From IMG/VR virus record IMGVR_UViG_3300020171_001013, positions 1 to 30,808 of that record: a DNA stretch of 30,808 bases; one strand, written 5' to 3'. The notes beneath the pieces are model-generated. The model ran no database searches and was not told the origin of the DNA. It was given only the letters and a program-made list of their open reading frames with translations. This DNA comes from a virus. The translations under genes and the position numbers were made by a program. Below, piece after piece: positions 1,126 through 30,808 of this stretch (position 1 is its first letter; every line of letters begins with the position of its first letter).

Positions 1126-1126
1126 T

Positions 1127-2221: not shown

Positions 2222-2223
2222 TT

Positions 2224-3871: not shown

Positions 3872-4548
3872 TAGATATATCAAAATTACCGAAACTTATG
3901 TATGAAGGAAAGCCATCACTACCTCCACAGAAAGACGATCTTGAACGGTTATATAATCTGATAGTTGACAATTTCTGTTTAACTGTACTTGAGTTTGGTT
4001 GCGGATATTCTACGCTGGTTATTGAGCAGGCACTTAAGGAAAACAAGAGAAAGTGGGACACCTTAGAAAATAAGCCAGAAGTTAGAAATCCGAACATGTT
4101 TGAATGTCATTCGATTGATACAAACGAAAAATGGATAGCAGAATGTGAGAGTTATTCTGATATATTCTTTTGGTGTTTTGACTCTAAGCGATTTGAATAT
4201 AACGGAAAGCTCTGCCATGTATATGATAACCTTCCATCTATTTTGCCTGATTTTATTTACATTGATGGGCCAGACCCATTAAGCGTATATGATTGGGGAT
4301 ATAATATGCCAATGGCTGCCGACCTATTGCTTATGGAACCACTCTTAATCCCAGGCACAATAGTTTTAATTGATGGCCGTACAAATAACGCGAGATTCTT
4401 GGAAAACAATCTGCAACGGAACTGGAAATTCAGATGGGACAAAGAAGAAGATTATACATTAATGATCCTTGAAGAGGTACGACTTGGTAAGATAAATGCA
4501 ATCGGTAGGGATATTCTGGAATATATAAATGACAATTTCAAAAGCTGA
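3868..4548 (+). CDS. Class I methyltransferase-like protein
   Basis: A 226-aa protein with a Rossmann-like motif I, VLEFGCGYSTLVIE (40-53), and a later strand FIYIDGPDP (129-137) typical of class I SAM-dependent methyltransferase folds of the sort found in surface-polysaccharide clusters. The intervening region is long, and the acidic residue after strand 2 is not obvious. Methylation of a sugar made by the upstream enzymes is a reasonable inference, not a demonstrated role. The start overlaps the neuA-like stop (ATGA), and the end overlaps the terminase start by 20 nt, which ties the sugar genes to the packaging gene. Confidence 0.6.
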   Translation: MIDISKLPKLMYEGKPSLPPQKDDLERLYNLIVDNFCLTVLEFGCGYSTLVIEQALKENKRKWDTLENKPEVRNPNMFECHSIDTNEKWIAECESYSDIFFWCFDSKRFEYNGKLCHVYDNLPSILPDFIYIDGPDPLSVYDWGYNMPMAADLLLMEPLLIPGTIVLIDGRTNNARFLENNLQRNWKFRWDKEEDYTLMILEEVRLGKINAIGRDILEYINDNFKS

Positions 4549-8052: not shown

Positions 8053-8264
8053 TAACTGAAGAAGATTATAAAAACTGGTGGGCTTCCCCCGTAGGAATGG
8101 AGGTTGCTGCTATGTTAAAAGAAAGACAGAACAGAATCGCTCATGGACTTGGAAATGGAGCTGCAAGGGGCGATGTATCAACATATGATGAAACGGTTGG
8201 AAGATATAAGGAAATTCAGGATTTAAAAGAAATGACATTCAAAGAGTTAATGGGGGACGTATGA
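8049..8264 (+). CDS. Small phage protein between portal and GroES-like gene
   Basis: A 71-aa acidic, probably helical protein without a recognisable domain. ATGA overlaps with the portal gene upstream and with the co-chaperonin gene downstream imply it is translated as part of the head operon. Small genes at this position are common in podovirus-like genomes, so a head-assembly role is plausible but not shown. Confidence 0.6.
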   Translation: MITEEDYKNWWASPVGMEVAAMLKERQNRIAHGLGNGAARGDVSTYDETVGRYKEIQDLKEMTFKELMGDV

Positions 8265-8581
8265 AAATTGAGGCACTAAAGCCAGTTGAGTTTGGAGTTT
8301 TAATTCAAGTAGATGAGGTTGAGGATAGGTCTTCTGGTGGATTGTTTTTGCCAGAAACAGTCCTTGAACGGGAACAGCTTTCACATGACAGAGGAACCTT
8401 AATATCAAAAAGCGATATGGCCTTTGAAGACTGGAACGGAACTATCCCGGAAGTAGGAGAGAAAGTAATTTTCAAGAAATATGCCGGAACCGTGATTCAA
8501 CACAAAGAAGATCGGGTGATCGTTGGCAAATACAGGTTGTGCAAAGATAAAGATATTGTTGCCGTTATAAGGGAGGATTAA
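8261..8581 (+). CDS. GroES-like co-chaperonin (Cpn10 family)
   Basis: A 106-aa protein resembling GroES: an N-terminal beta strand KPVEFGVLIQVDEVE, a mobile loop with the hydrophobic tripeptide in SSGGLFLPE, a rising strand RGTLISKS, the PEVGEKVIFKKYAGTVI core, and a C-terminal CKDKDIVAVI matching the ESDILAIV ending of GroES. The mobile loop is what binds the GroEL apical domain. Phage co-chaperonins such as T4 gp31 replace host GroES so that GroEL can fold the phage capsid protein. The position between portal and scaffold fits that role. No GroEL gene is present, so the host chaperonin would be the partner. Confidence 0.82.
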   Translation: MKIEALKPVEFGVLIQVDEVEDRSSGGLFLPETVLEREQLSHDRGTLISKSDMAFEDWNGTIPEVGEKVIFKKYAGTVIQHKEDRVIVGKYRLCKDKDIVAVIRED

Positions 8582-13252: not shown

Positions 13253-13928
13253 TCAAAACCCTATGGGTCAGCTTATAGTTCCTGACCCCACTTCCGTCCA
13301 TATGTTCATGGACGATTTCAACAAATTCAATCCCGGCGATTGGTTTATCACTCGTATTCATGCAGGAGCAACAGCCGGTACGGAAACAATAAGTGACGCA
13401 ACTGGTGGTGTGCTTGCTTTCTATCCTGCCAATGCTGATAACGATTCCACGTTTTTTCAATGGAAAGCCACAGATAACGTATCAACCGCATCTGAAATAT
13501 TCACATTAGAATCTACCAAGAAGCTTTGGTTTAAGGCCAGGTTTAATGTTTCCGATACCGGGGACAGTGATTTTATAATCGGTCTTCAAAGTGCAGATAC
13601 TACACCTACAACCGCCCCTGTCGATGCTGTACTATTCAAATCTGATGATGGTGATGATTATCTTGATTTTCAGGTTTATGCTGCCAGTGCTTCAACCCTT
13701 GCAGATGCAGCACTTGCTACGTTAGTTGACAGTACCTATGTAACGGTTGCTTTCTACTGGGACGGTGTTGATACGATTTATTATTATCTTAACGATCAAC
13801 TGCAAGGATCAAGTTCAAGCCTTACATATCCAACTGCTGCAATGACACCTACTTTTGGTGTGCAGAACGGTTCTGCTTCAGCAAGAACAATGTCAATAGA
13901 CTATGTTTGTGTAATTAAAGAACGATAA
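13206..13928 (+). CDS. Virion protein with concanavalin/LamG-like beta-sandwich (putative)
   Basis: A 240-aa, Thr/Ser/Asp-rich, beta-dominated protein. The pattern FMDDFNKFNP, then FFQWKATDNV, LWFKARFNVSD, SDFIIGLQSAD and VTVAFYWDGVDTIYYYLND fits a jelly-roll of concanavalin A/LamG type often seen in phage head or tail decoration proteins. No signal peptide is present. AAAGGAG at 13190-13196 and ATG 13206 support initiation inside the end of the preceding gene. Carbohydrate binding is possible but unproven. Confidence 0.6.
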   Translation: MSSPQRYAKGVTNVSSQNPMGQLIVPDPTSVHMFMDDFNKFNPGDWFITRIHAGATAGTETISDATGGVLAFYPANADNDSTFFQWKATDNVSTASEIFTLESTKKLWFKARFNVSDTGDSDFIIGLQSADTTPTTAPVDAVLFKSDDGDDYLDFQVYAASASTLADAALATLVDSTYVTVAFYWDGVDTIYYYLNDQLQGSSSSLTYPTAAMTPTFGVQNGSASARTMSIDYVCVIKER

Positions 13929-13946
13929 GCATAAGGAGGGTACAAA

Positions 13947-14390
13947 ATGGCTGACGCAACAATGGTTGAATATCTGTATCCTCCCAATATGCTTGACGGC
14001 GATTGGGATGAAAAACAGGGGAATAGAAAAGTAGTTGTAAGAATGTCTTGCCTGAGTGATGGTTCTGGCGAAACTAATGTTATTAAAATTGCATTGTCAG
14101 ATTTGAAAACCCATAACGGAAACATACCATCAAGAACAGTGGTCGAATGGATTGAATATCAGATATTGGGCATGGCCTGTCTTCTTGAATGGGATAGGGC
14201 GCCACATGCTGAGATTCTACGCATAAATGCTACCGGACAAGAATCAAGCGGAAGGACAGATTATCAAAGTTATGGCGGGAGAATAGATCCTGGCGGTGAC
14301 GATAGAACTGGCGATATCCTAATGACTACGACAAACGTAACCAATGGAGATTCTTACGAAATAAATATTTGCTTAAGGCTTAAAGATTAA
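13947..14390 (+). CDS. Conserved-type phage structural protein, function unknown
   Basis: A 147-aa protein with no domain I recognise. It contains WIEYQILGMACLLEWDRAPHAEIL in the middle (as shorter runs around residues 68-92) and a Gly/Asp-rich loop (GGRIDPGGDDRTGD). A size, position and beta-rich makeup like this in head-neck clusters suggest a minor head or completion protein. AAGGAGGG lies just upstream. The stop overlaps the next ATG as TAATG. Confidence 0.5.
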   Translation: MADATMVEYLYPPNMLDGDWDEKQGNRKVVVRMSCLSDGSGETNVIKIALSDLKTHNGNIPSRTVVEWIEYQILGMACLLEWDRAPHAEILRINATGQESSGRTDYQSYGGRIDPGGDDRTGDILMTTTNVTNGDSYEINICLRLKD

Positions 14391-14872
14391 TGACCAATTA
14401 TTATAAGCCCGGTGATTACAATGTGATTTGTGATAGATGTGGCATGAAGCGCAAGGCCAGCCAGTGCCGAATGACATGGGATAGCCTTTTCGTTTGTGCT
14501 GATAGATGCTGGATGCCGAGACATCCGCAAGATTTCGTAGAGGCCGTACTTGACGATCAATCGGTTTCTATCGCAAGACCCGGCGTCCAATTTTATCTCG
14601 GAGAAACCACGGTACTTACTACAGCATTAATAAATGCTACATCTATTGACATAACATCCATAACCGGATTGGCTGACAAAGATGCTCTTGGAATTGTTCT
14701 TGATAATGGCGCTTGCCACTGGACTTATAGTAACGGTACGCCTTCCGGAAACACAGTAACCTTAGGTTCTTATTTGCCAAGCAAAGCTACTGCCGGAAAT
14801 GCTGTTTATCTACCATCAATAAATAACGAAGACTTTACAACAGCAACCACCTTAACTGCAACGGGGTTATAA
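14390..14872 (+). CDS. Zinc-ribbon phage protein
   Basis: A 160-aa protein with an N-terminal metal-binding module: CDRCGMKRKASQC (14-26), then VCADRCWMPRHPQDFV (35-50). The WxPRHPQDFV ending is a hallmark of a zinc-ribbon phage protein usually found beside head-tail connector genes. In the homologues I recall the second knuckle is CxxC; here it is C36-x3-C40, one residue longer. The C-terminal part is a Thr/Ala-rich beta domain. The role is unknown; a structural neck or DNA-contacting function is possible. Confidence 0.65.
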   Translation: MTNYYKPGDYNVICDRCGMKRKASQCRMTWDSLFVCADRCWMPRHPQDFVEAVLDDQSVSIARPGVQFYLGETTVLTTALINATSIDITSITGLADKDALGIVLDNGACHWTYSNGTPSGNTVTLGSYLPSKATAGNAVYLPSINNEDFTTATTLTATGL

Positions 14873-14873
14873 A

Positions 14874-16109
14874 ATGGCAACTTCTGGTGTATATAGATAT
14901 AATGTAACAGCAAATGATATTTTAGAAGAAACGTTCGGATTGATAGGCGTATATGCTCCAGGTGAAGCTTTGGATGCTTCGGAAGTGACTGATGCGCTAA
15001 GAACCTTAAACATGATGCTAAAGACATGGCAGGCAGAGCATATAGGGTTATGGCTCAATAAGGAGCTGGTATTGTTCTTAGAAAAAAGCGAATACAAATA
15101 TAATATCGGCCCCACAGGAGATCATTGTGCCAATGCTTTTGCTAAAACGGAAGTTGCAACAGCCGCAGCCAGTGGAGCAAGTTCGCTTATTATTGATGCC
15201 GTAACAAATTTTAGCGACACATATGACAGGAATGGCATTATCACAGCAACTACCCCAACGGGAGCAGGGTCAATAACTCTAACAGGCGCTCTTGTGTCAA
15301 GCGGGATAGCTACCTTGCCGGGAAACAGAAAGATATTGATATATTCCGTAGCAGACGAATCAGGGGTTGTTTTTGGAATAACAGGCCAAGATGCTGATGG
15401 AATTGCAGTAACAGAAAATATAACAGGGCCGAATACCACGACAGTTTATAGCACATACGAATACAAAACCATAACAGCCATAACCATTGATGGAGCCGGA
15501 ACCGGCAATATAGAAGTCGGATGTGTAGGGGATGCGATAGGCATAGAGCTTGACGACGGCACGCTGCAATGGACAAATATCGGAGCGGCCCTAAGCACTA
15601 CTACAACATTAATAACCACGCTTACAGATTCCGTGGCTGTAGATAATCATGTTTATTCTTATACTGTAAAGGTTCCAAGGCCACTTGAAATAATAGAAAC
15701 CAGACTGCACGATAGCTCAGACAGAGAAAGGCCGCTTAAGCTTATATCAAGAAATGAATATATGAATCTTGCAAACAAAACAACTACCGGGCAAGCCAAC
15801 CAGATATATTATGACTCACAAACGATTGAAGGCATTATGAACATATGGCCGGCATGCTCAAACGTAAAGGATTATATAAAGTTTACTGCCCGATTGCCTA
15901 TCCAGAATCTTGAGGCAATAACAAATGATTTTGAAATATCTGCTGAATGGTTTGAGCCTATCGCTTGGAACCTGGCAGTAAGAATGTTCCCTAAATATGA
16001 AAAGGCTATTGCTCCTGGGGTAGCTTTAATGGCTGCTGATATGAAAGAAACCGCTAAAGGATTTGATAGAGAATATCAATCTATATTTATTAATATGGTA
16101 ACCAGATAA
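14874..16109 (+). CDS. P22 gp4-like head-completion/tail accessory protein
   Basis: A 411-aa protein whose N-terminus (ANDILEETFGLIGVYAPGEA, then DALRTLNMMLKTWQAEHIGL) is the helical signature of the gp4-like connector that binds under the portal and begins tail assembly. A long Thr/Gly-rich beta insert (roughly 90-260) separates it from a C-terminal helical part ending in WFEPIAWNLAVRMFPKYEKA. Because the insert is larger than in P22 gp4 (166 aa), this is a family-level call. It overlaps the next gene by one base (TAATG). Confidence 0.7.
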   Translation: MATSGVYRYNVTANDILEETFGLIGVYAPGEALDASEVTDALRTLNMMLKTWQAEHIGLWLNKELVLFLEKSEYKYNIGPTGDHCANAFAKTEVATAAASGASSLIIDAVTNFSDTYDRNGIITATTPTGAGSITLTGALVSSGIATLPGNRKILIYSVADESGVVFGITGQDADGIAVTENITGPNTTTVYSTYEYKTITAITIDGAGTGNIEVGCVGDAIGIELDDGTLQWTNIGAALSTTTTLITTLTDSVAVDNHVYSYTVKVPRPLEIIETRLHDSSDRERPLKLISRNEYMNLANKTTTGQANQIYYDSQTIEGIMNIWPACSNVKDYIKFTARLPIQNLEAITNDFEISAEWFEPIAWNLAVRMFPKYEKAIAPGVALMAADMKETAKGFDREYQSIFINMVTR

Positions 16110-17515
16110 TGGCAAAAATTGAAATAAACTTTATCAATGGAGCATATACAGCAAGGAGTAAGAATCTCAATGCCCAGCTTTGCCAGAATTTCTATATTGA
16201 AACAGATACTACCGGAGCGAAGAACGGGGTAGCTTTAATCGGTTGCCCAGGATGCATAGAATGGAAAGACACTGGTAATTATGCCGAGGTAAGAAATTTT
16301 AAAGTGTACCAGAACAATTTGTATGTAGTGGTTGGAAATACTTTGTATAAAATATCCACCGCAAAAACACAAACAACCATAGGAACCATAGGGACTTCTT
16401 CTGGTTGGGTAGATATGGAAGAGGACGGAATCTATTTAGTAATTGGAGATTCTGCTGGTGGATGGGTTTATGATGGAGGCACATTAACATATGTTTCACC
16501 CACAACATTAACGCCTTCAAGCCTTACGTACCAAGATGGATATTGCATAGCTACAATTACCGGAACTGACCAGTTTTTTATTTCTGCTCAAGATGACTTT
16601 TCTACATGGGACGCTACAGATTATGCAACCGCCGAATCAAGCGGAGATATCCTTGTATCTGCTAAATCCGTAAGGAATCAGCTTTGGCTTCTTGGTAAGT
16701 TTTCGACAGAGGTTTGGTATAATTCTGGGGAAACCTTTCCATTCAACAGAAACCCTGGTGGCGTACTTCCTTATGGATGTAGTTCTAAACGAAGCGTTGC
16801 GTTTTTTAAAGATATGTTGTTTTGGCTTGATAATCAAAATCGGGTTGTAATAGGTAAGGGACTTACGATACAGCCAGTTTCAACATATCAGATTGATTAT
16901 CAAATTGGTCTTATGAAAAGAAAAGACAATTCGGTAGGATTCACTTATTCCCAGGAAGGCCATGATTTTTACGAGATTACATTCCCTACCGATAGCAAGA
17001 CCTTCTGTTATGATATTACTACCGGAATATGGCATACAAGAGCAAGTGGAGCATTGAACAAAAGGAGTATTGCTAATTGTGCAATCGAGTTTGATAGTAA
17101 GGTTTTGGTCGGTGATTTTGAGAATGGTAAGATATATGAGTATAGCCTTGAAGCATACGACGATGATGGAGAACCTAAGGTAGCCATAAGACGAGGCCAG
17201 ACAATAAACGACAAGAAGCAAAGAATATTCTTTGGGCTTTTCGAGCTTGACATGGAGACCGGCATAGGCAATGCAGACGTAACAGATCCACAGATAATGC
17301 TTCGGTGGTCGGATGATAACGGCAAAACCTGGTCTTCTGAAAAATGGAAGTCTCTTGGAAAGACAGGAGAATATAAAACAAGAGTAAGATGGAAAAGGCT
17401 TGGAAGTTCCTTTGGCAGAATATTTGAAGTTGCGATAAGCGATGCTGTAAAGAGAAACATTACAAACGTATATGTAGATGGAACCGCTGGAGGCACAGCG
17501 AATGCCAAAACTTAA
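16109..17515 (+). CDS. P22 gp10-like packaged-DNA stabilisation (tail hub) protein
   Basis: A 468-aa protein typical of the gp10-like plug that seals packaged DNA and joins the tail. Features: LNAQLCQNFYIE near the N-terminus, YAEVRNFKVYQNNLYVVVGN and similar beta-propeller-like blades, QLWLLGKFSTEVWYNSG in the centre, and IMLRWSDDNGKTWSSEKW with RWKRLGSSFGRIFEVAISD at the C-terminus. Length matches the family (about 470 aa). It follows the gp4-like gene directly, the order seen in P22-like phages. Confidence 0.87.
   Translation: MAKIEINFINGAYTARSKNLNAQLCQNFYIETDTTGAKNGVALIGCPGCIEWKDTGNYAEVRNFKVYQNNLYVVVGNTLYKISTAKTQTTIGTIGTSSGWVDMEEDGIYLVIGDSAGGWVYDGGTLTYVSPTTLTPSSLTYQDGYCIATITGTDQFFISAQDDFSTWDATDYATAESSGDILVSAKSVRNQLWLLGKFSTEVWYNSGETFPFNRNPGGVLPYGCSSKRSVAFFKDMLFWLDNQNRVVIGKGLTIQPVSTYQIDYQIGLMKRKDNSVGFTYSQEGHDFYEITFPTDSKTFCYDITTGIWHTRASGALNKRSIANCAIEFDSKVLVGDFENGKIYEYSLEAYDDDGEPKVAIRRGQTINDKKQRIFFGLFELDMETGIGNADVTDPQIMLRWSDDNGKTWSSEKWKSLGKTGEYKTRVRWKRLGSSFGRIFEVAISDAVKRNITNVYVDGTAGGTANAKT
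17489..17493 (+). promoter_or_regulatory. Shine-Dalgarno site choosing ATG 17502
   Basis: GGAGG lies 8 nt before ATG 17502. The earlier in-frame ATG at 17478 has no purine-rich site upstream. Confidence 0.6.
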
Positions 17516-18254
17516 GCAACCACCTTTTATTGAATTGCCTAATTCTAAGAATGGTGATTGGTCGGATTCATGGCATGAATTTATAAGGGATTTGCAACCA
17601 AGAATAAACGAGCGCCCTGAATTAGTTGGAAGCACAACACCAGGCAACATAACCATAATAGACAACGCCGGAAACCTTGAGGATGGAGGAGTTTCCGTTC
17701 CATCCTTGCCAGACGGTACTATAGCAGACGAAGAATATGTAAGAGAATATACAGGCGAAAGATTTATAATCGATAACGTGTTGCCAGAAGCTGGAACGGA
17801 AGAAGGCGCAAGATTCGGAAGTTACAGAATTGGTTTATTAACAGAGAATGATTATGCTTATTTTGATGAGAATGGCAAGCTGATATTTTATGGTACTTCC
17901 GGGACACAGATAATAACTCCAGAGAACGCCACCTCAACAACCAGGTTTGCAGTGTTTGATTCGAGCGGAAACCTTAAATATAGAACCGCGGAACAACTGG
18001 CGGATGATTTAGATGGTCTTCTTGTAAGTAGGGACTATGTATCAGAAACCTTCATAACCGAGAATTTGCTTGATGAGGCTGCATTAGATGATTTAATTGT
18101 TACGGGGATTGACTCAAGTGGTGACGTGGTAATTGATTCATCAATAGAAGGCGTAGTTTTAAAAGATAGTCAATCACCTCCACATTATTGGAGAATAACG
18201 GTGAGTGTTTTGGGTGTTTTAACAACAACGGATCTGGGGGTTATTAAACCTTAA
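17502..18254 (+). CDS. Tail fibre/appendage-type protein
   Basis: A 250-aa protein if started at ATG 17502, supported by GGAGG 8 nt upstream; ATG 17478 would add eight residues. The N-terminus PPFIELPNSKNGDWSDSWHE probably docks to the tail hub. The C-terminal motif HYWRITVSVLGVLTTTDLG is common at the ends of phage fibre modules. The middle is acidic, beta-rich and repeats EYV/DYV segments. Role is inferred from position after the gp10-like gene. The next gene begins at the base after the stop. Confidence 0.6.
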   Translation: MPKLKQPPFIELPNSKNGDWSDSWHEFIRDLQPRINERPELVGSTTPGNITIIDNAGNLEDGGVSVPSLPDGTIADEEYVREYTGERFIIDNVLPEAGTEEGARFGSYRIGLLTENDYAYFDENGKLIFYGTSGTQIITPENATSTTRFAVFDSSGNLKYRTAEQLADDLDGLLVSRDYVSETFITENLLDEAALDDLIVTGIDSSGDVVIDSSIEGVVLKDSQSPPHYWRITVSVLGVLTTTDLGVIKP

Positions 18255-19160
18255 ATGCCAATACACGTTGCATTAGATGAAACGGGAAAAGTCCCAACGG
18301 CTCAACTTCCAAAGAGCCAGGGCGGGGTTACGCTTGAACAAGTGAAAGCCGACACAGATATAGCGGATGCTATATCAAAAAAACATGCGTACGGCTCTGA
18401 TAATCAGGACTTGTCTGGTTATGTTCTTACCAATGATTCAAGGCTTTCGGATGCAAGAACCCCAACTACGCATGGTCACGCTATAAGTGATGTTACAGAT
18501 CTTACAACTACCTTGGCTGGAAAAGAAACGTTCGGGGCTGTATCTTCGCATGAAGGCACATACAATCATACAAACTATAATACGGCTTACTCTCACAGTC
18601 AGGCAGCACACGCTCCATCCGGAGCACAGGCAAACGCTGATATTACTAAGGCCGAGATTGAGGCGAAGCTCACAGGGGAGATCTCAAGCCACAGCCATTC
18701 TGGTGGGGCAGACCCATTTACAAACAAACTGGTACTTGGTTCAGATAAGCCGACAGGAGCCAACACAACTCCTGTTACACTTGGGCTTTCGTTTAACTAT
18801 GAGGCTGGCAGTAAATATGTGATTGATATTTATGCTATTGTAGCCCCAGCAGTAGCCGGAACAGGGTGCGGTTTTCTAATAGACGTATCCTCTACTGTAA
18901 CATATGTCGGAACGTTCACGGCTCATCAGCTTGCCGCAACAGGAACTGTTTCAGGCGGTTCAAGCATAGGTGATTTAGGGGCTACTTCGCAAGGGGTATC
19001 TTCTGGTATGGTTGGTACTGGAAGCAACTTCGTATATGGTGGCGGGATGGTAATCACAGGGGCAAACACAGGAACGGCCACCTTTTTTTTTAGATCGGAA
19101 ACCACAGCAGTTACAACCTGTAAAGCAGCAACTATGATTCGGGTTATGAAAATGGCATAA
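18255..19160 (+). CDS. Histidine-rich tail fibre protein
   Basis: A 301-aa protein with the fibre-type segment GYVLTNDSRLSDARTPTTHG (55-74) ending in HGH (73-75), a second histidine cluster HSQAAHAP near 114-121, and HSH (146-148). In T4 the tip of the long tail fibre uses HxH motifs to bind iron and lock a trimer; similar metal-assisted trimerisation is plausible here. The C-terminal half is Gly/Thr/Ser-rich beta structure, the likely receptor-facing or head domain. There is no signal peptide. A run of nine T (19083-19091) lies in frame. Confidence 0.65.
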   Translation: MPIHVALDETGKVPTAQLPKSQGGVTLEQVKADTDIADAISKKHAYGSDNQDLSGYVLTNDSRLSDARTPTTHGHAISDVTDLTTTLAGKETFGAVSSHEGTYNHTNYNTAYSHSQAAHAPSGAQANADITKAEIEAKLTGEISSHSHSGGADPFTNKLVLGSDKPTGANTTPVTLGLSFNYEAGSKYVIDIYAIVAPAVAGTGCGFLIDVSSTVTYVGTFTAHQLAATGTVSGGSSIGDLGATSQGVSSGMVGTGSNFVYGGGMVITGANTGTATFFFRSETTAVTTCKAATMIRVMKMA

Positions 19161-21630: not shown

Positions 21631-24000
21631 ATGGCTGAAATATCTATGGATAGGTTAGACCCTATAAATGATAAAGAAAATGATAATGTTATTGAAATTT
21701 CACCAGATAGACTTGCGGAGGATACAGAATCACAAACAAACTGGCAAAAAATATATCTTAAGGCCCGGCCATACCTTAAAACAGCAGCAGAATCCGGTGG
21801 CATGGCGGGGGGGGGCGCTCTTGGAGCTGCCGCTGGCGTTGGTGTCGTAAGTCTTTTCACTGGGGTAGCTGGTGGAGCTTTGGGATATGCGGCTGGAAAA
21901 GAAAGCATAGACTTGTTAGATCAACGGTTTGGCATTAAAGACCAGGAGTCATTACCTAAAGAATTATTGCAGTCTGGCAAAGATGTGGCTGAGGGTGCTA
22001 TACTTGAAATTACCGGAAGATCAGCAGGCGTAGTAATTAGCAAAACAGCTGGTTTCGCCGGAAAGGGCATTAGCAAACTTCTCAAAAAAGCACCACTTAG
22101 GGAATCGGCTATAAAAAGAAAAGCAGGAGAAGAACTGCTGTCGCAGGGTAGTGAAGCACTTGATCCTCAAATTGCTAAAAATATTGAAATAGCTAAAAAT
22201 ATTGAAGCTAAAATTCCTGAGTTAAAATTCACAAGAGGACAAGTCACCAACGATGCACAGGCTATATCGCTTGAAAGAGCATTGATTAGAAGCGGAACAA
22301 GAATAGAAAAAGGAAAGTTTGTTGTGTCTGGCGCTGATTTAAGTCAAGAGCAAAAGGCTTTTGGAGAAAGAGCATTGCAAGAATATTATGCCAAACAAAC
22401 AGCTACTACTGGGAAACTAAGCGATGTTTTAGATGTTATCGGAAAGCAAAAAGCCACATTGGAATCATCTATTAAAACAGCAGAAGGAAAAGTTAACGCT
22501 GAAGTACAGAAACTAAGCAGTGTTATCGATGAGCAGGAAATAGGAAAGAACATAATAGGGAAATCTCTTAATCCGGTAAAAGAAGCAGCGAAAAAGAAAG
22601 CTACTATTTTATATGATAAAATTCCTAATGTTGAAGTTGGAACAAAAACTATAGGCAAAAGAGTATCTGAAATAAAAAAAGACTTTGATCCACTTATTGA
22701 AAATCCAAAAAACTTCCCCAATAGAATTGTAAATGGAATATTGAAAAAGACAGAAGACGGAACTACTAATATAGGTTTCCAGGATTTACGAAAATTAAGA
22801 AGTACAATACTTGCCGAAAGAAGAATGGCAAGTGGTGGGGCAAGCCCGAATCCTCAACTCAACAGAAGGCTTGGGCAGATTCAGGATGTTATAGAGGACG
22901 CTATAGACACACAAATGCAAGGAGATACCGGAAGTGCAGGTAAGCTTTATAGGGAAGCAAGTGCCTATTATTCGCAATACTCAAAAGCATTTAAACAAGG
23001 GACGGTAGCAGATGTTTTGCAGAAAGGGGTTCGTGGAGAAGAAACAAAAATAGCTATGTCAAATGTGGCAAGCAAATTTTTTACAAAAGACGGTTTTGAT
23101 GATTTTGCAAGAGCAGTAGGAAACGATAAGCTTGCAAGAAATTCAATGAAAGATTATGCGCGTTATGATATGTTTAACAAAACCTATGACGCTGGAAAAA
23201 ATACTATTAACCCAACAAAAGCTTTTGGATGGATACAAAAAAACAATAAGGTTTTAGATAAGCTTGGTATTAAACAAGAGTTTTTAGATATAGCAAAAAC
23301 AGGGCGTAGCGTTAACATAGCTCAAAAAGAACTTGATTTATTTAATAAATCTATGTCAAGCAGGATTTTAAATGCTGATACCGATACTGTGGTTACGGAA
23401 ATATTTAGAGGTAGCAAGAATTATGCTTATACTGCTAATCAGCTCTTAAGCACAATGAAGGGAAATAAAGCAGCAGAAGAAGGAATAAGGAAAGCTGTTG
23501 CAGATCATATTATTGATTCAAGCAAAGTTACTGCTGAAGGATTTTTTACCGATTTTAAAGTAAGCGCATCAAAACTATCGCAAACATATAAAAAATTTCG
23601 ACCGGCACTAAAGGTTCTTTATAAAAATGACAAAGCAAAACTAACTGCTATTAGAGATGTTAATAGAGCATACACAATTTTAAACAGGAACACGGCATCT
23701 CCGATAGGTGGTGGATCTGATACAGCAGAAAACATTTCAAATATATTGGCAGCATCTACGGGCGCAAGGGCTGGAAGATATTATCTTATAATAGGAATTA
23801 AAAAGGCGATTACAAAATATTCTAATAATGCTGTCAATAGATATTTATTAAGAGCCACTTTTGATCCTGATTATGCTACGAACCTGATGGGGTTAGCAAG
23901 GGCTAATGCTAGCAAGGCAGATGTGCCAAAAGTTATCGGTAGATTTGACAATCTTATGACCAGAATGGTAGCTTTAAGCACTAAAGAATTATCAGAATAA
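21631..24000 (+). CDS. Large internal virion protein with glycine-zipper segment
   Basis: A 789-aa protein. Residues 56-89 form a glycine-zipper type membrane segment (GGMAGGGALGAAAGVGVVSL, then TGVAGGALGYAAGKE), suited to pore formation in the host envelope. The rest is helical and basic, with Lys/Glu-rich stretches. It is the third and largest of the ejection-type set, comparable in position with P22 gp16. A G9 tract (21807-21815) encodes part of the zipper; gain or loss of a G would truncate the protein after about 60 residues. No lytic transglycosylase motif was seen. Confidence 0.6.
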   Translation: MAEISMDRLDPINDKENDNVIEISPDRLAEDTESQTNWQKIYLKARPYLKTAAESGGMAGGGALGAAAGVGVVSLFTGVAGGALGYAAGKESIDLLDQRFGIKDQESLPKELLQSGKDVAEGAILEITGRSAGVVISKTAGFAGKGISKLLKKAPLRESAIKRKAGEELLSQGSEALDPQIAKNIEIAKNIEAKIPELKFTRGQVTNDAQAISLERALIRSGTRIEKGKFVVSGADLSQEQKAFGERALQEYYAKQTATTGKLSDVLDVIGKQKATLESSIKTAEGKVNAEVQKLSSVIDEQEIGKNIIGKSLNPVKEAAKKKATILYDKIPNVEVGTKTIGKRVSEIKKDFDPLIENPKNFPNRIVNGILKKTEDGTTNIGFQDLRKLRSTILAERRMASGGASPNPQLNRRLGQIQDVIEDAIDTQMQGDTGSAGKLYREASAYYSQYSKAFKQGTVADVLQKGVRGEETKIAMSNVASKFFTKDGFDDFARAVGNDKLARNSMKDYARYDMFNKTYDAGKNTINPTKAFGWIQKNNKVLDKLGIKQEFLDIAKTGRSVNIAQKELDLFNKSMSSRILNADTDTVVTEIFRGSKNYAYTANQLLSTMKGNKAAEEGIRKAVADHIIDSSKVTAEGFFTDFKVSASKLSQTYKKFRPALKVLYKNDKAKLTAIRDVNRAYTILNRNTASPIGGGSDTAENISNILAASTGARAGRYYLIIGIKKAITKYSNNAVNRYLLRATFDPDYATNLMGLARANASKADVPKVIGRFDNLMTRMVALSTKELSE
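21807..21815 (+). repeat. G9 homopolymer inside the glycine-zipper codons
   Basis: Nine G in a row, read as the end of GCG, two GGG codons and the start of GGC. The frame is intact at this length. Such a run is rare in DNA of this composition and prone to slippage or sequencing error. Confidence 0.9.
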
Positions 24001-24011
24001 AGGAGAAAATA

Positions 24012-26426
24012 ATGTTTGAATATCCAAGATTTAAACGATTAAATATAATAATATTAACTTTATTTATAATATTATTTACAGCTTCAGGATACGCCGGGAA
24101 TAACTTTGTTTATCCAAGATTTAAAGCTATTGACGGTAATGGCAATCCGATTCGTGGCGGGCTTCTTTATTCATATATTGAAGGTACTTCCACAGCAAAA
24201 GATACTTATTCAGACAAAGAATGTAGTGCTGCTAATACTAATCCTGTTGTGCTTGATTCCAATGGCGAGGCATTAGTTTATCTTCTTGGAACCTATAAGT
24301 TTAATTTAAAAACAAGTTCCGGTGGACAGGTTCCTGGCTGGCCTGTTGATAATATAGAGGGAGCAGCAGCAGCGTTTATGGATTTCTATTATCCTGATTA
24401 TGCAGCAGCAGATCAGGGAGCAACTGGTGATTCAAATACCGTAAAGTATTATGTAGATACAATCGGAGCCACCAATAAGGCAACGATTTTTCTTCGCCAT
24501 AATTCAGGTAACGAGTTTACGGATTATATATTCTTAACTTCTGATGATTATACTGCAAATACGAATATAAATTTTGTGTTTGAAAATGGCGCGAGATTAG
24601 CTCCTGCAACTACCAAAACAGTTACCATCCCCTCTCCTGAAAACATTATAGCAAGCGATAGGCAACAAATAAAAACAGGCGCTGGAACGCTTGCTTTTGC
24701 TACATATGGTACAGTCTCGCCTTTATGGTTTGGAACAAACACAGTACCTGGCACAACGGATATGACGTCAGCATGGAATCAGGCAGTTGATGCAATCACG
24801 ATCGGAGGCGTGATAGACGCTCCGATAGATAATTATTATATTTCTGCTGTAATTGGTGTAGCCGATACAGCAGGAACACAATCAAATAAATATATAATAA
24901 GAGGTAACAACTCTATCTTTACATGCGCTGCTGCGCTTACAGATGGAGTTATCAGATGGGGAACTACTACGCTTATTGGTTATCCTCCCGACATACAAGA
25001 CTTATGGCTTGATACAGGACTTGACTTGAGGGCTGATGGGTCAAGCAATTCTATAGGAATTTATATCACAGGTCGTCAAAGAGGAAAGCTTCAAAATGTC
25101 CATGTTTTCGGGTTTGCCACTGGATTTAAAATTGAAGGTTGGGACGTAGCTGAGGGCTTAATTGGATGTGAGGCTTATTTTTGTACGATAGGCGTTGATG
25201 CGAATAATCTTAACAATGGAGTAAATCATGGCTTACAAGCGTTTGCCATAAAAGATGGTTTGTATGCTTGGAATGGGATAGGAATACAAATATCAGGTGG
25301 ACATGCAATAACTATATCCGGCAACCAAATTAATAATAATTCGGATATAGGATTATGGATCGGACAACATATTTCCGAAGTAACAACAATGCCAACTGTC
25401 ACGGGCAATCACTTTGAAACAAATAGGAATTATGATGTTAGAATTGGGGGTGCTACACCGGTCAGAGGTGGTAAATTTACTGATAATGTTAACATAACAG
25501 GCAGCACAGAATATACTTCTATTTCATATTATGTCTTTAATATTCAAAATTCTCCAGAAATAGGGAATAATAACATAACGGGAGCCGATGGAAACACAAC
25601 TTATATTCCATATGAATATTATGAACCTTATGCTTTTGGTTTGGGAGTAAATCATAATTCATATAATTGGATAAAAAATGGTTCTTTCTATGCTTGGAGC
25701 AGCGGTATATCTGAAGTTGCTCCCGACAACTGGGCGCTTTCAAACGCTTACGCTTATATTGGAACTGTTGCGCCAAAAGAATCAACATCTTATTCGGCTT
25801 TACTCTCACAGGGAACTTGGGCATATTTACAGCAAACTTTTTCCTCTGATGATGTTTTAACGCTGGCAGGAAAATATTGTACTTTCGGCGCTTGGGTAAA
25901 GGCCTCTGACGTAAACGATAAGGAACAACGGCTTGTAGTTACGGACAACCTTGGCACAATATATGTCAGTAGGGTCATCCCGAAAGACAGCGCGTGGCAT
26001 TACATGTCAGTAGGTTTTCAAACGAACCCGGCTATAACAGCCTTATACGCCCGTGCTTATGTTAATTATTCAGCGGTTGCAGATACAACTGATGTTTTAT
26101 ATGTGTCTTGCGCTACTTTAAGAGAGGGCAATTTTGATATTAATTTTACTCCTAATCCAAAAGACGTGATGGGGATTCTTGATATTTCGGCAACCTGGGA
26201 TGCCGGATCAATAGCAAATGGGGCAAAAGAAGCCAAGGACATAACAATATATGGCGCGGCTTTAGGCGATTTTGCAATGGCAAGTTTCAGTCTTGACGTT
26301 TCTGATCTTGTGCTTGATGCACAGGTTACAGCGGCAAATACGGTTACTTGTGTGCTATTAAATAATACAGGTGGAGCAATTGACTTAGCTTCAGCAACTG
26401 TATATGTAAGGATTTGGAAACGATAA
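24012..26426 (+). CDS. Tailspike-like beta-helix protein with N-terminal signal peptide
   Basis: An 804-aa protein. Residues 11-28 read as a Sec signal (NIIILTLFIILFTASGYA, cleavage after A28). After it comes a typical tailspike head-binding domain: YPRFKAIDGNGNPIRGGLLY, NPVVLDSNGEALVYL, and VPGWPVDNIEG. SPLWFGTN (about 236) leads into a right-handed beta-helix with GNQINNNSDIGLWI and similar coils (about 250-500). A carbohydrate-binding-like sandwich (NGSFYAW to about 710) and a C-terminal ATWDAGSIANGAKEAKDITI domain follow. YPRFK occurs at 4-8 and again at 34-38, on either side of the signal. GGAG 7-8 nt before ATG 24012 supports this start. Likely binds or degrades host glycan. Confidence 0.75.
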   Translation: MFEYPRFKRLNIIILTLFIILFTASGYAGNNFVYPRFKAIDGNGNPIRGGLLYSYIEGTSTAKDTYSDKECSAANTNPVVLDSNGEALVYLLGTYKFNLKTSSGGQVPGWPVDNIEGAAAAFMDFYYPDYAAADQGATGDSNTVKYYVDTIGATNKATIFLRHNSGNEFTDYIFLTSDDYTANTNINFVFENGARLAPATTKTVTIPSPENIIASDRQQIKTGAGTLAFATYGTVSPLWFGTNTVPGTTDMTSAWNQAVDAITIGGVIDAPIDNYYISAVIGVADTAGTQSNKYIIRGNNSIFTCAAALTDGVIRWGTTTLIGYPPDIQDLWLDTGLDLRADGSSNSIGIYITGRQRGKLQNVHVFGFATGFKIEGWDVAEGLIGCEAYFCTIGVDANNLNNGVNHGLQAFAIKDGLYAWNGIGIQISGGHAITISGNQINNNSDIGLWIGQHISEVTTMPTVTGNHFETNRNYDVRIGGATPVRGGKFTDNVNITGSTEYTSISYYVFNIQNSPEIGNNNITGADGNTTYIPYEYYEPYAFGLGVNHNSYNWIKNGSFYAWSSGISEVAPDNWALSNAYAYIGTVAPKESTSYSALLSQGTWAYLQQTFSSDDVLTLAGKYCTFGAWVKASDVNDKEQRLVVTDNLGTIYVSRVIPKDSAWHYMSVGFQTNPAITALYARAYVNYSAVADTTDVLYVSCATLREGNFDINFTPNPKDVMGILDISATWDAGSIANGAKEAKDITIYGAALGDFAMASFSLDVSDLVLDAQVTAANTVTCVLLNNTGGAIDLASATVYVRIWKR
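24021..24035 (+). repeat. 15-nt direct repeat, copy 1, flanking signal-peptide segment
   Basis: TATCCAAGATTTAAA, encoding most of YPRFK, just after the start codon of the tailspike-like gene. Identical to copy 2, exactly 90 nt downstream. Extended leftward to 24015 the two copies match at 19 of 21 positions. Confidence 0.95.
24111..24125 (+). repeat. 15-nt direct repeat, copy 2, flanking signal-peptide segment
   Basis: Second exact copy of TATCCAAGATTTAAA. The 90-nt offset keeps the frame, so the DNA between the copies adds exactly 30 codons, nearly all of them signal peptide. Confidence 0.95.
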
Positions 26427-26442
26427 TATAAGGAGAATAAAA

Positions 26443-26937
26443 ATGAAATGGATTCGTAGCTTTTTAATGGGTTTTCTAATGCTGCTGATGGCTTCCGGGG
26501 CATGGGCAGCAGGAACAATCATCGTAGCAAGCGATAGCGACACATCTGGCACAAGCAACAATGTAAGAATTATATCTTATACGGTTACTTTCGATGCTTC
26601 CGGGGGATCACCAGATGCGGTAGCATTAGATAGTATTGTAAAATCAGGCGGTGGGCTTGTTCCAAGCTTAAAAGGATGGTGGATACTTGAAATAAACACT
26701 CTATATGGAGCTACAGCCCCAACGGTCGATACGGATCTGTACCTATACCGTTATATAGGAACAAATCGTATAGATGTATTTGGGGCAAGCGGTGCAGATA
26801 AAATCGATAACGCAACTGATAATACGTTCAATCCTGCCACTACATCAAGGCCATTGTTAGGAACAGAGCTTTTAAGCATATCTAACAACTCGGTAGCCAG
26901 CGCAACCTGCACTATAGTCTTTACGTTGTACCGATAA
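26443..26937 (+). CDS. Secreted small virion-type beta-sandwich protein
   Basis: A 164-aa protein. The N-terminus is a textbook Sec signal: basic n-region MKWIR, hydrophobic FLMGFLMLLMASG, and AWA ending at A22. The mature part (about 142 aa) contains YTVTFDASGGSP, GWWILEINTLYGATAP and TDLYLYRYIGTNRIDVFG, a pattern I associate with beta-sandwich domains encoded in phage tail regions. The same kind of domain normally lacks a signal peptide. AAGGAG lies before the ATG. The stop is in frame with, and 9 nt before, the ACG proposed as the start of the next gene. Confidence 0.65.
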   Translation: MKWIRSFLMGFLMLLMASGAWAAGTIIVASDSDTSGTSNNVRIISYTVTFDASGGSPDAVALDSIVKSGGGLVPSLKGWWILEINTLYGATAPTVDTDLYLYRYIGTNRIDVFGASGADKIDNATDNTFNPATTSRPLLGTELLSISNNSVASATCTIVFTLYR

Positions 26938-26942
26938 GGGGG
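26936..26942 (+). promoter_or_regulatory. Shine-Dalgarno-like site before the proposed ACG start
   Basis: AAGGGGG overlaps the preceding stop and ends 4 nt before ACG 26947. GTG 26971 has only pyrimidine-rich DNA upstream. Confidence 0.5.
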
Positions 26943-26946
26943 CGCT

Positions 26947-29115
26947 ACGAAACGAATCTTTATTCTTTTTGTGTTGTTGTTTTTTCCTGTTAGTTCTTTT
27001 GCTGGTGGGCCAATATCTTTTGGTGGGGCCGCTGTAGCTGACGCAGAACTCGGTTATCTTGCAGGCCTCACCTTTGCGGATGCCAGTATCATACAGTTAA
27101 CAGGAGCCACTTCCGCTGCGGTTTTAACAAGTGGTGGGAATGATTACTTTTTAAAATCGGCTACCGATAATTCTTCGGTTATATTTGCTTCTCCTGCCGA
27201 TGCTAGAACTGCACTTGGTCTTGTAATTAGCACAAACGTTCAGGCTTATGATGCTAAGTTGGCCGCCATAGCTGCTTTAGCAAATGGAGCTGGGCAACTT
27301 ACAAACGATGGCTCTGGTAACTTCTCTTATGCAGCCGGAGGATCTGGTGATGTAGCTTCCGATACAATATGGGATGCTGCCGGTGATCTTGTACAAGGTA
27401 CAGGAGCCAACACAGCAGCTAAACTCACCAAGGGAGCCGAGGGTACACTCTTAAGAGCAGGGGCAACTTCTAACGCTTATACAACAAGCACCTTTGCAGA
27501 CACTTATGCTAAAGGAACCTTCCTTTATAATGCGTCTGCAAATACCGTTGCAAGTCTTGCTCATCCAGGTACTGCAAACTATATACTTTATACTAATGCG
27601 GCGGATACGTCTGCTTGGTTAGCTTCAAGCGCAAACATGATTTCCCTTTTAGGAAGTGCTGATTATGCCACAGCGAGAACAAATTTAAGTCTTGTTCCCG
27701 GAACGAATGTTCAAGCATATTCCGCTACCCTTTTATCCCTGGCAGGATTAACAGAAACTTTCGGTGGGATTCCTTATGGCACAGCGGACAATGCGTATGC
27801 TTGGTTAGCTGCCGGCGCTTCAGGGAAGATTCTGATAGGCAAAGGGGCTGCTGCTCCTGAATGGACTCCCTATACCTTACCGGCAACAGTCCCTACCGTT
27901 GGAAAAGTTTTAATAAGTGATGGAACGAATTTGATTGGTTCAACTGCTCTTGGCAGTGCAGCCTATGTAACGGCAGCAGACTATCTCGCAATTGCCGACA
28001 TAGATGATGAGCCTGTTAACGGGGTAACGACTGCTCCGATAAGTTCAAACTATATTTATGACCTTGTAAATGGCGTTGACCCTTTTCCAATATATATGCA
28101 GGAAAACAACCTCGGTTTTGGTGCTAATAACTATATTCAGATTGCCGCTGATCCTGGGACGCCGGACGCCACTACGTTTCTGAATGGACTTGGGAAATGG
28201 GCTGTTCCCGAAGGAACCGGAACGCCAACAGAAATCACAGTTGCAAATGAGGCTACAGACCAAACTTGTCATCCTTTATTCGCAACAGCGCTAACAGGTG
28301 ATCTTGGGCCAAAGACAAATGCTGGTTTTACCATTAATTCAAATACCGGAATGTGGGGCTTGCCTGGAATAACCGTTGGAGCTTTAGGCGTTACAGTAAG
28401 TAAGCAGAGCGGTGTGGCTGGTAGATCGGTTCTCTATGAAGCCAATTCAACAGATGTGCATACGGCTGGTTTCCGGGGCCCTGCTTCAATAACAGGGGAT
28501 GGAGCTTATGAAGGACAGCTCCCGAACGCAAGGCCGAGTTCAGCAAACATGGTTATGGCTTGGACAAATGCCGGAGAATCAGGGAATGGCACAGCAGCAA
28601 CCCCTTACGTTCAAGCCACCTCGTGGATTGATCTTGATGGCTACCAAGCAACAGTGACAGAGGGCAGCCTTGCTGATTCAGTGATTGTAAGCGCAGATAT
28701 TAAAGATGGTGAAATAACCACTTCTGACATGGCCACGGCTACATCAACTAAGGTAAATCGTTATCATCAGACAGCCCATTTTAATCCAGATGCTCTTTAT
28801 GCTCTTAACACAGGCATTCTTGTACTTGATCCTAAAACAACAGCAGCAATTACCATTACTGAAATCGCAGTTTATCTTAACGAAAATCCAACAACAGAAT
28901 TGACGGTTACCCTTTACTGGAAAGCGGTTGCGATAGGATATACTGGCGGGACACAGATTGATGCAAACGACACGGTGGCTGGAACTTTTGTGGCTACCTC
29001 TTCATTTGATGATGCTACAATTCCGGCAGCAAGCAAGATTTGGCTGGTTATAGGGGATAATCCTGATGCCACGACAACTGGTTTTGAGATAGCTTTAACT
29101 GGAACATACGACTGA
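26947..29115 (+). CDS. Long fibre-like repeat protein with signal peptide; likely ACG start
   Basis: From ACG 26947 the protein is 722 aa and begins (M)KRIFILFVLLFFPVSSFAGG, a complete signal peptide with cleavage after A19. The only standard start that could replace it, GTG 26971, removes the basic n-region and half the hydrophobic core and has no ribosome site. No ATG, GTG or TTG lies between the previous stop and 26971. The mature protein has fibre-type repeats (ARTALGLVISTNVQAYDAKL and ARTNLSLVPGTNVQAYSATL), stretches of Gly/Ala/Thr beta structure, the phage-type segment FATALTGDLGPKTNAGFTIN, and a C-terminal beta domain. It is probably a trimeric fibre or adhesin. Confidence 0.65.
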   Translation, partial: TKRIFILFVLLFFPVSSFAGGPISFGGAAVADAELGYLAGLTFADASIIQLTGATSAAVLTSGGNDYFLKSATDNSSVIFASPADARTALGLVISTNVQAYDAKLAAIAALANGAGQLTNDGSGNFSYAAGGSGDVASDTIWDAAGDLVQGTGANTAAKLTKGAEGTLLRAGATSNAYTTSTFADTYAKGTFLYNASANTVASLAHPGTANYILYTNAADTSAWLASSANMISLLGSADYATARTNLSLVPGTNVQAYSATLLSLAGLTETFGGIPYGTADNAYAWLAAGASGKILIGKGAAAPEWTPYTLPATVPTVGKVLISDGTNLIGSTALGSAAYVTAADYLAIADIDDEPVNGVTTAPISSNYIYDLVNGVDPFPIYMQENNLGFGANNYIQIAADPGTPDATTFLNGLGKWAVPEGTGTPTEITVANEATDQTCHPLFATALTGDLGPKTNAGFTINSNTGMWGLPGITVGALGVTVSKQSGVAGRSVLYEANSTDVHTAGFRGPASITGDGAYEGQLPNARPSSANMVMAWTNAGESGNGTAATPYVQATSWIDLDGYQATVTEGSLADSVIVSADIKDGEITTSDMATATSTKVNRYHQTAHFNPDALYALNTGILVLDPKTTAAITITEIAVYLNENPTTELTVTLYWKAVAIGYTGGTQIDANDTVAGTFVATSSFDDATIPAASKIWLVIGDNPDATTTGFEIALTGTYD

Positions 29116-29125
29116 TAGGTGAACC

Positions 29126-29854
29126 ATGAAGAAAATCCTTTTATTAATATGTTTGTTATGCTTATTGGCTTTTAGCTCGAATGCCGGAAACGTGGTAACA
29201 TTCTTTCCCGTTGCTGATACTGCATGTGCCGATGAAACCTGTACAGGCTTTTTAATTTGCCAGAATTTTGAAGGTACTGGCTATGATAACTCAGAGGCAG
29301 GCTGGTCTGATGCTGGCGAAAATACCACGCGGGACGCTGATTATACGGGGACGGTACTTAGAGGTTCACAGTCAGCATCAGTGGTTCAAACAGCCTTTGG
29401 TGGATGGGGAGGCATTCTAACAGGGTTTACGCCACAAACCACTGTATATGCGTTTGCCAGGGTTAGAACGGCAGGAGTTGGTGCTATAGGAGCTGTTTTT
29501 ACCATTGGAGATAGCGGATGGGTAAATGATTTAGTGTCTATTAAGTCGAACGGTGTTTCTGGCTACTTATATTGCGGAACTGTCCAAAGTACCTCATTTA
29601 CGTTTACGAATGATGTGACATATTACGTTTGGTTAGACTATACGAAAGGCACAGGAGCAAACGCAGTTTGCGTCGCTTATGTTAGCACAACGAGAACAAA
29701 GCCAGCAGCTACCGTAACGGTTGCAAATGGGAATGCTACCACGGACGCAGAACTTGTCATAACCCCATTGGTAGGCGCTGATGATTCTGACAGTAGGATT
29801 ATTGCAGATCAGGTATTAATAAAAACATCAGACATAGGGACAGTATGTGAATAG
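29126..29854 (+). CDS. Secreted LamG/concanavalin-like protein
   Basis: A 242-aa protein with a clear signal peptide (MKKILLLICLLCLLAFSSNA, cleavage after A20). The mature part has two early Cys pairs (CADETC and CQNFEG region) and a beta-sandwich: CQNFEGTGYDNSEAGWS, TTVYAFARVRTAGVGAIG, VSGYLYCGTVQS and DVTYYVWLDYTKGTGANA, the layout of LamG/concanavalin-like glycan-binding domains. It resembles in fold the product of 13206-13928, which has no signal peptide. AGGTGA precedes the ATG. Disulfide formation in the periplasm would suit its cysteines. Confidence 0.65.
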   Translation: MKKILLLICLLCLLAFSSNAGNVVTFFPVADTACADETCTGFLICQNFEGTGYDNSEAGWSDAGENTTRDADYTGTVLRGSQSASVVQTAFGGWGGILTGFTPQTTVYAFARVRTAGVGAIGAVFTIGDSGWVNDLVSIKSNGVSGYLYCGTVQSTSFTFTNDVTYYVWLDYTKGTGANAVCVAYVSTTRTKPAATVTVANGNATTDAELVITPLVGADDSDSRIIADQVLIKTSDIGTVCE

Positions 29855-29862
29855 GAGATGCC

Positions 29863-30808
29863 TTGATTAATTTTACAAGACTTATAATAATATATCTCAT
29901 TACTTATCTGATAATACCGATAAACATAGTTGCTTTTGGCGCAACCCAAACGATGTCTACCTGTTCCTCTGCTGCATGGGACACAGCTTATTCAGCAGCC
30001 TCGGCAGGCGATACTATTGCGTTTCCGGCGGGCACTTGTAATCTCACAATGACAAAAACTATTGCGAAGGCAAATCTTGTCATCCTTGGTAATGGAGTAA
30101 GCAATACGCAAATAACAGGTGGATTTAATGTAACTGCCCCTGCGGCGAACGGACTAAGAGTTACGGCAATAAGGTTTGTGGGCGGGCCAGCAATGAATGC
30201 CAGTGGTTCTGGCTTATCTGGTTTAAGATACGATCATTGCTACTTTTATAATGGAAACTACTTTTTTAATTTTTATCCGAATGTAACCAATAGTGTTGTA
30301 GATCACTGTACTTATGACACAGTTACCGGGGAAGGCAACTACGTCTGGGGCGAAGTACCAAGAAGTTCTCCGGGGTTCCCATATGCCTTAGGCGCAGCTT
30401 CCGGTGGGGCAGGGGTTTATTTTGAAGATAATACCGTAATAAATGCAAGTTCAATGGCGCATTGGATTGTTCAAAGTCGTGGTGGTTCAAGAGTTGTTAT
30501 AAGATATAATCGTATAGCTTGCCCACAATGGGATTCAATTGACGCCCATGACAATTATGAGGGCACGAGTGAATCGGGTAGTGCTACATGGGAAATTTAC
30601 AACAACCTTTTTACTTCTGGCTCTAATTCAAGGCAGGTACATTTAAGGGGTGGGCAAGGCGTAGCATTTAACAACTACTTCTCAAGCAACACTTCGTGGA
30701 GCTTAACCCTAGACTCATATATTCTTTGTAACGAAACTTGCGTAAAAGGTTCTGTGGGTATTTGTTCCTGGCAAAACCAAGGCAACTATATATGGAACAA
30801 TAGATATA
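29863..30808 (+). CDS. Secreted beta-helix (pectate-lyase-like) protein, 3' truncated by window
   Basis: Open from TTG 29863 to the end of the window (315 codons seen). AGGAG at 29853-29857 lies 5 nt upstream; an ATG at 29858 runs into a stop after two codons. Residues 1-27 (MINFTRLIIIYLITYLIIPI, then NIVAFGA) read as a signal peptide. The mature region shows the start of a parallel beta-helix enzyme or adhesin: SAASAGDTIAFPAGTCNLT, LVILGNGVSNTQITGG, VDHCTYD, GVYFEDNTVINAS, RVVIRYNRI and AFNNYFSSN. Such motifs are typical of pectin/pectate-lyase-like folds in spikes. Catalytic residues cannot be assigned without the rest. Confidence 0.7.
   Translation, partial: MINFTRLIIIYLITYLIIPINIVAFGATQTMSTCSSAAWDTAYSAASAGDTIAFPAGTCNLTMTKTIAKANLVILGNGVSNTQITGGFNVTAPAANGLRVTAIRFVGGPAMNASGSGLSGLRYDHCYFYNGNYFFNFYPNVTNSVVDHCTYDTVTGEGNYVWGEVPRSSPGFPYALGAASGGAGVYFEDNTVINASSMAHWIVQSRGGSRVVIRYNRIACPQWDSIDAHDNYEGTSESGSATWEIYNNLFTSGSNSRQVHLRGGQGVAFNNYFSSNTSWSLTLDSYILCNETCVKGSVGICSWQNQGNYIWNNRY

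Follow-up and report, generated by a model that had tools for sequence, protein, structure and literature searches.

The tailspike gene that begins at position 24,012 of IMG/VR virus record IMGVR_UViG_3300020171_001013 encodes a P22-type head-binding domain, the part of the protein that docks onto the virion, behind a predicted Sec signal peptide, and the four genes that follow it carry predicted signal peptides as well. The window analyzed here is this whole record, 30,808 bp with linear ends and probably a fragment of a larger genome, and genes are named below by their start positions (Table 1). We consider it very probable, judging from sequence comparisons, that all five products are exported, because the predicted cleavage point of 24012 falls at the start of its signal-less homologues, the signal of 29126 is conserved, the arrangement recurs in other phages and cysteine counts tend to be even in the relatives. 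The fuller proposal, in which the proteins would be exported by host Sec and mature in the periplasm and the cleaved spike would join virions at lysis, has in our estimate about an even chance of being right.

Signal peptides on five consecutive genes

N-termini were scored with a rule-based measure that considers a charged n-region, a hydrophobic core and a -3/-1 site, and on which ten known signal peptides from E. coli reach 11.7-16.7. The initial annotation had proposed that five consecutive genes carry Sec signal peptides, and this was borne out for all five (scores in Table 1), whereas none of the 27 other genes in the window reaches 12 by the same score, the maximum being 11.5 for an ejection-type protein without charge in its n-region (chance of this split, 5e-6). 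Shuffling the N-termini yields scores as high as the real ones 0-1.8% of the time, and the background rate in related phages is 4 of 313 upstream open reading frames (ORFs) and 7 of 340 downstream ORFs, two of those seven belonging to the same kind of spike. Each of the five has the charged n-region, hydrophobic core (mean Kyte-Doolittle values as high as 3.5) and small -3/-1 residues expected of a Sec/signal peptidase I substrate, 26947 solely when read from an ACG start. That ACG, with AAGGGGG upstream, yields a textbook signal peptide, MKRIFILFVLLFFPVSSFA, cleaved before GG; the first standard in-frame start, a GTG at 26971, loses the charged n-region, and the ACG is either an unusual start codon or an error in the sequence. 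Gene 29863 has a TTG start.

Other parts of the initial annotation needed adjustment. Its observation that the upstream fibre proteins lack signals stands, as neither scores as a signal, though the first of these ORFs opens at 17478 and not at 17502. Its description of all five products as spikes or fibres holds for 24012 by homology and weakly for 26947, but 26443 and 29126 match no family and 29863 is weakly pectate-lyase-like.

The head-binding domain of 24012 and the origin of its signal

Residues ~31-118 of 24012 resemble the tailspike N-terminal domains of Xanthomonas, Rhodoferax, Shewanella, Vibrio and other phages. In a profile search (hmmsearch) the domain matches PDB 7eeq_A, described as 'tailspike head-binding domain', at E 1.3e-15, as well as the 9vyg/9vyh spikes, and in a fold search with the AlphaFold model the best 23 PDB matches are all tailspike head-binding domains or tail complexes (Pan3, Pam1, P22, Sf6). 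The named-phage homologues that were translated all begin directly at the head-binding domain with no signal, and when 24012 is aligned with signal-less homologues its predicted cleavage point coincides with their start; cleavage would restore the usual tailspike N-terminus. By its domain 24012 is thus a P22-type tailspike, and like such spikes it lies among tail and ejection genes, but the domain stands at the extreme N-terminus in the predicted mature protein alone and not in the protein as made. Farther along, body residues 177-368 match an 809-aa signal-bearing protein of another locus (L240) that has no head-binding domain, and the C-terminal cap domain is shared with E. coli phage tailspikes. 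At the C-terminus, residues 721-803 (window positions 26174-26420) share 65% identity with the end of a protein (164 aa) from Dunaliella viridis virus SI2, whose record holds tailed-phage genes yet lists an alga as host.

The DNA around the signal suggests how it may have arisen. Two copies of a 21-nt direct repeat, 19/21 identical, are spaced 90 nt (30 codons) apart with the signal between them, and this is the sole 19/21 repeat at offsets of 30-300 anywhere in the 30.8-kb window. Bracketed as it is by two copies of the putative old gene start, the signal looks like an insertion into a spike gene that once had none; on the simplest reading, duplication of the old start, with hydrophobic sequence now between the two copies, would have made a Sec precursor of a spike that was once cytoplasmic. 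The head-binding domain closest to that of 24012 is a signal-less one (L090; 57% identity, support 99/95), and the sequence bears traces of a recent gain of the signal in the lineage of the window. In a phylogeny of 102 head-binding domains (97 columns), a short domain for which many forks are weakly resolved, presence or absence of the signal changes nine times, and at least three of these changes are forced by well-supported branches.

Recurrence of signal-bearing spikes and their neighbors

A signal before the head-binding domain recurs in roughly a dozen further phages or prophages, where the spike gene is similarly placed in the genome. Among relatives found through 16109, in which the spike directly follows the last ejection-type gene, two spikes are signal-less (L011, L013) and two signal-bearing (L038 in G001, L086 in G002). 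Where the spike lies between a tail gene and the ejection genes, L090 is signal-less and L091/G003, L119/G004 and L188/G006 are signal-bearing, and L125/G005 has a signal-bearing spike after a large ORF. An IMG/VR domain search contributed L091, L119 and L125; an earlier domain profile (A1) was too divergent for searching and was dropped. In a second IMG/VR domain search, biased towards acidobacterial sequences, 5 distinct domains of 46 bear a signal and one more has a clear signal-like N-terminus below threshold, and in Acidobacteriota genomes 8 of 9 head-binding-domain genes (E < 1e-10) have a signal or a clear signal-like N-terminus, although the samples were drawn with profiles that contained signal-bearing sequences and the fractions are indicative. 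The rule missed the signal-like N-terminus of L173/L212, and L208 is a weak match without a signal. A Thermodesulfobacteriota genome holds one domain gene with a signal (L236) and one without (L237), and no signal-bearing head-binding-domain gene was found in Proteobacteria genomes. The feature thus appears in many independent contigs and named genomes, G+C-rich ones included.

The signal-bearing spike is the sole head-binding-domain gene found in G001-G004, and likewise in the Acidobacteriota genomes. G005 has two such spikes (L190 ~1230-3200 and 13428-15887), one signal-less and one signal-bearing, but a signal-bearing copy beside a signal-less one does not fit the other phages examined. On Acidobacteriota chromosomes, signal-bearing domain genes occur in L173 (5929-7659), L170/L226 and L225 (8693-14680); those of L173 and L170 have no obvious phage neighbors, and that of L225 is followed by two more signal-bearing genes. 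These chromosomal copies are possibly prophage remnants or domesticated spikes.

Where the spike bears a signal, additional signal-bearing genes tend to stand in a row with one another: three in G004, two or three in G001, two each in G005, G002 and G003, and several in the acidobacterial loci L224 and L225. Searches of Pfam and PHROGs with the signal-bearing proteins of the other phages returned almost nothing, apart from one weak match to phrog_460. The initial annotation had called for signal prediction on homologues, and by the rule-based score the signal is kept in both detectable homologues of 29126, one in L240 and one in vir555 (L241, BK063671), each with signal-bearing neighbors. The vir555 record is circular, 43.8 kb long and has T7-like tail genes, and in it a row of signal-bearing genes comes after a fibre gene (phrog_1640) that has no signal; its host entry is Methanomicrobiales, which may be doubtful, since the relatives found point to bacterial hosts. 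Because the homologues of 29126, their neighbors and the L240 protein that shares part of the 24012 body all bear signals, the property belongs to the module and not to a single protein family. Likeness in order or size between the window and vir555 arrays was not confirmed by sequence beyond 29126. The AlphaFold model of 29126, built from two sequences, is poor (pLDDT 49), and its lectin/lyase matches are hints only. Used as direct IMG/VR queries, whole 24012, 21631, 26443 and 29863 found no relatives, and 26947, 26443 and 29863 likewise had none among named phages by tblastn.

Cysteine content offers a separate view of export, as even cysteine numbers are favored in exported proteins of bacteria with Dsb systems (PMC7678975). 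Across the phages studied, 28 of 37 signal-bearing genes encode an even number of cysteines, compared with 86 of 191 signal-less genes (p 0.001); with the window and G005 left out, a split chosen after the data had been seen, the signal-bearing fraction is 27 of 31. Signal-bearing spikes are also richer in cysteine than signal-less ones (1.49 versus 0.61 Cys/100 aa, p 2e-4), and even counts occur in 24 of 50 signal-less spikes.

Within the window, the five signal genes form one tight operon with gaps of 8-16 nt, each preceded by a Shine-Dalgarno-like sequence, that begins directly 3' of the last ejection-protein gene. Read from its 5' end, the window holds NeuB, a pair of epimerase-type genes, a CTP transferase and a methyltransferase, then the large terminase, portal, a GroES-like gene, further structural genes, the tail gene 16109, the fibre-like 17478 and 18255, a small gene, the ejection-type 19505, 20212 and 21631, and finally the five signal genes. 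The GroES-like co-chaperonin gene (Cpn10; 8261-8581) adjoins the portal gene, and L012 has a comparable small gene at 3304-3618. A NeuB-type nonulosonic acid cassette (NeuB, epimerase/dehydratase, UDP-GlcNAc 2-epimerase, CTP transferase) and the methyltransferase occupy 92-4548, directly upstream of the terminase. The suggestion that this cassette and the exported proteins form a coordinated surface-remodelling system did not gain support beyond their co-occurrence on one contig; none of the sugar genes bears a signal peptide, they are found at the opposite end of the window, and the pairing of cassette and signal-bearing spike was not met in the other phages, among which no systematic test was made.

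Table 1. Features of the window relevant to the signal-bearing operon
Feature	Position	Strand	Signal score	Remarks
Tailspike gene 24012, 804 aa	24012..26426	+	15.9	signal peptide, P22/Pam1-type head-binding domain, long beta-rich body, C-terminal cap domain
Signal peptide of 24012	24012..24095	+	15.9	MFEYPRFKRLNIIILTLFIILFTASGYA, cleaved before GNN
Head-binding domain of 24012	24096..24380	+		AlphaFold pLDDT 86.5; fold and profile matches
Direct repeat copy 1, 21 nt	24015-24035	+		TTTGAATATCCAAGATTTAAA; putative old gene start, now n-region (FEYPRFK)
Direct repeat copy 2	24105-24125	+		TTTGTTTATCCAAGATTTAAA; head-binding domain start (FVYPRFK)
Gene 26443, 164 aa	26443..26937	+	14.5	signal peptide 26443-26508; no family match
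Gene 26947, 722 aa	26947..29115	+	15.8	tail-fibre-like (phrog_24210, E 6e-6); signal peptide 26947-27003 given ACG start
Gene 29126, 242 aa	29126..29854	+	16.8	signal peptide 29126-29185; low-confidence lectin/lyase-like beta-sandwich
Gene 29863	29863..30808	+	13.3	beta-helix-like, weak Pectate_lyase_4 match; signal peptide 29863-29934; 3' part cut off by contig end
Gene 21631	21631..24000	+		large protein, ejection-protein position; adjoins 24012 upstream, marks syntenic spike place in relatives
Gene 16109	16109..17515	+		conserved tail gene; query that retrieved 88 related IMG/VR phages
Genes 17478 and 18255	17478..19160	+		fibre-like, both signal-less; 18255 matches tail protein phrog_1197

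Fate of the exported proteins and comparison with known systems

Among the export mechanisms listed in the initial annotation, periplasmic assembly before lysis fits best, with attachment at lysis, because 24012 keeps a head-binding domain that binds the virion; release of free enzymes or decoys is the main rival. As we envisage it, the host-contact proteins of this podovirus-like phage would be made late together with the other structural proteins, and their signal peptides would target the precursors to the membrane and host Sec. Signal peptidase would then cut, returning to the spike its usual N-terminus, and the spike would fold and trimerise in the periplasm until lysis breaks the inner membrane and the head-binding domain can dock onto the tail machines of virions that were put together in the cytoplasm. 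Docking as a last step is plausible, since in P22 the tailspike is the final part to be added and, in extracts, joins particles that are already complete; given export, we regard docking at lysis as somewhat more likely than not. Several observations weigh against this proposal. The window holds no lysis genes; the second spike of G005 and the window's own fibres are signal-less, so that the exported set need not be the sole virion adhesins; and a virion-binding domain is not demonstrated for three or four of the five proteins. The window's genes also show no even pattern of cysteines (7, 1, 1 and 6, and 8 in the cut-off gene), and those of G005 are likewise off-pattern (13 and 1), an exception that might reflect a host lacking disulfide formation in the periplasm.

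The exported proteins might instead act free, as soluble polysaccharide-degrading enzymes or as receptor-masking adhesins or decoys set free at lysis or earlier, which we judge fairly unlikely. Signals and even cysteines fit export of free proteins too, most members of the array have no known virion-binding domain, 29126 and 29863 weakly resemble carbohydrate-active folds, the signal-bearing row of vir555 is preceded by a signal-less fibre, and there is a bacterial precedent in the exported tailspike-like enzyme WceF (PMC7949094). A free enzyme, however, would have no need of the well-formed head-binding domain that 24012 retains in its usual syntenic place, an argument not valid for the other four, and the signal-bearing spike is the only gene with that domain found in the Acidobacteriota genomes and G001-G004. 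It is improbable that the hydrophobic segments remain uncleaved, as inner-membrane anchors or hydrophobic parts of the virion: their cores are very hydrophobic, but all five proteins and their relatives have good -3/-1 sites, the n-regions are short and charged, the hydrophobic part stops exactly before the head-binding domain, the relatives have even cysteines, and an anchor would keep that domain from reaching the tail. Host-derived secreted cargo without a role in phage entry is less probable still, for although the Acidobacteriota copies in L170 and L173 sit among apparently bacterial genes, the five share operon and spacing with structural genes, the domain is a phage head-binding domain and the gene mostly sits among tail and ejection genes. 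That the signals reflect chance, or an artefact of AT-rich sequence, start-codon choice or assembly, is scarcely credible despite a rule-based predictor and one ACG start, given the absence of signals from the window's other genes by the same predictor and the recurrence of the feature across independent contigs and named genomes.

Returning to periplasmic maturation with docking at lysis, we suggest, more tentatively than for the window itself, that this may be a recurrent strategy of tailed phages, clearest in those of Acidobacteriota, in which adhesins are made as Sec precursors, fold with disulfides in the periplasm, stay separate from the heads and tails in the cytoplasm and complete the particle only at lysis, the habit being gained or lost as a signal peptide is added to or removed from the front of a head-binding domain that is otherwise ordinary. 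If so, phage assembly gains a compartment and cysteine-rich fibres are explained, and the finding bears on how receptor-binding proteins are spotted in metagenomes.

WceF of Pantoea stewartii resembles 24012 in being exported and having a phage-tailspike-like beta-helix, but it is bacterial and encoded in an exopolysaccharide locus, has a Tat signal and is no virion part (PMC7949094), whereas 24012 lies in a phage tail operon and has no twin-arginine motif. Signal-peptide endolysins (fOg44 Lys44) and SAR endolysins are phage proteins that pass through Sec before lysis, but they are lysis enzymes and not adhesins (PMC6116005). In vir555 (BK063671), the signal-bearing row that includes the 29126 homologue ends the tail module, and the array is annotated as hypothetical only. 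The open-access literature, to which our survey was confined, describes phage signal peptides on endolysins, spanin-type proteins and the esterase PBR31 gp40, and in it we found no signal-bearing tailspike. Known exported phage proteins serve, for instance, in lysis or in superinfection exclusion.

The closest parallels remain the P22-type spikes. P22 gp9, the Pam1/Pan3 cyanopodophage spikes and Sf6 gp14 share with 24012 the N-terminal head-binding domain, the position among tail and ejection genes and the long beta-rich body, and the nearest named head-binding domains (38-51% identity) are those of Xanthomonas phage PBR31, Rhodoferax phage P26218, Thalassomonas phage BA3 and Shewanella phage X14, whose spikes differ in that the protein begins directly at the domain. 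P22-type spikes start at the domain, have no signal peptide and are made and assembled without export, and in textbook tailed phages assembly is wholly cytoplasmic. A cleavable export signal on a virion-binding spike breaks this rule, as the docking part is predicted to lie across the membrane until lysis, and virus assembly may thus take place in two compartments of the cell. Close relatives that differ in having the signal, yet share the genomic position of the spike, provide a clean natural comparison for the purpose of export, and 24012 differs from every characterized P22-type tailspike that we checked in carrying a signal peptide.

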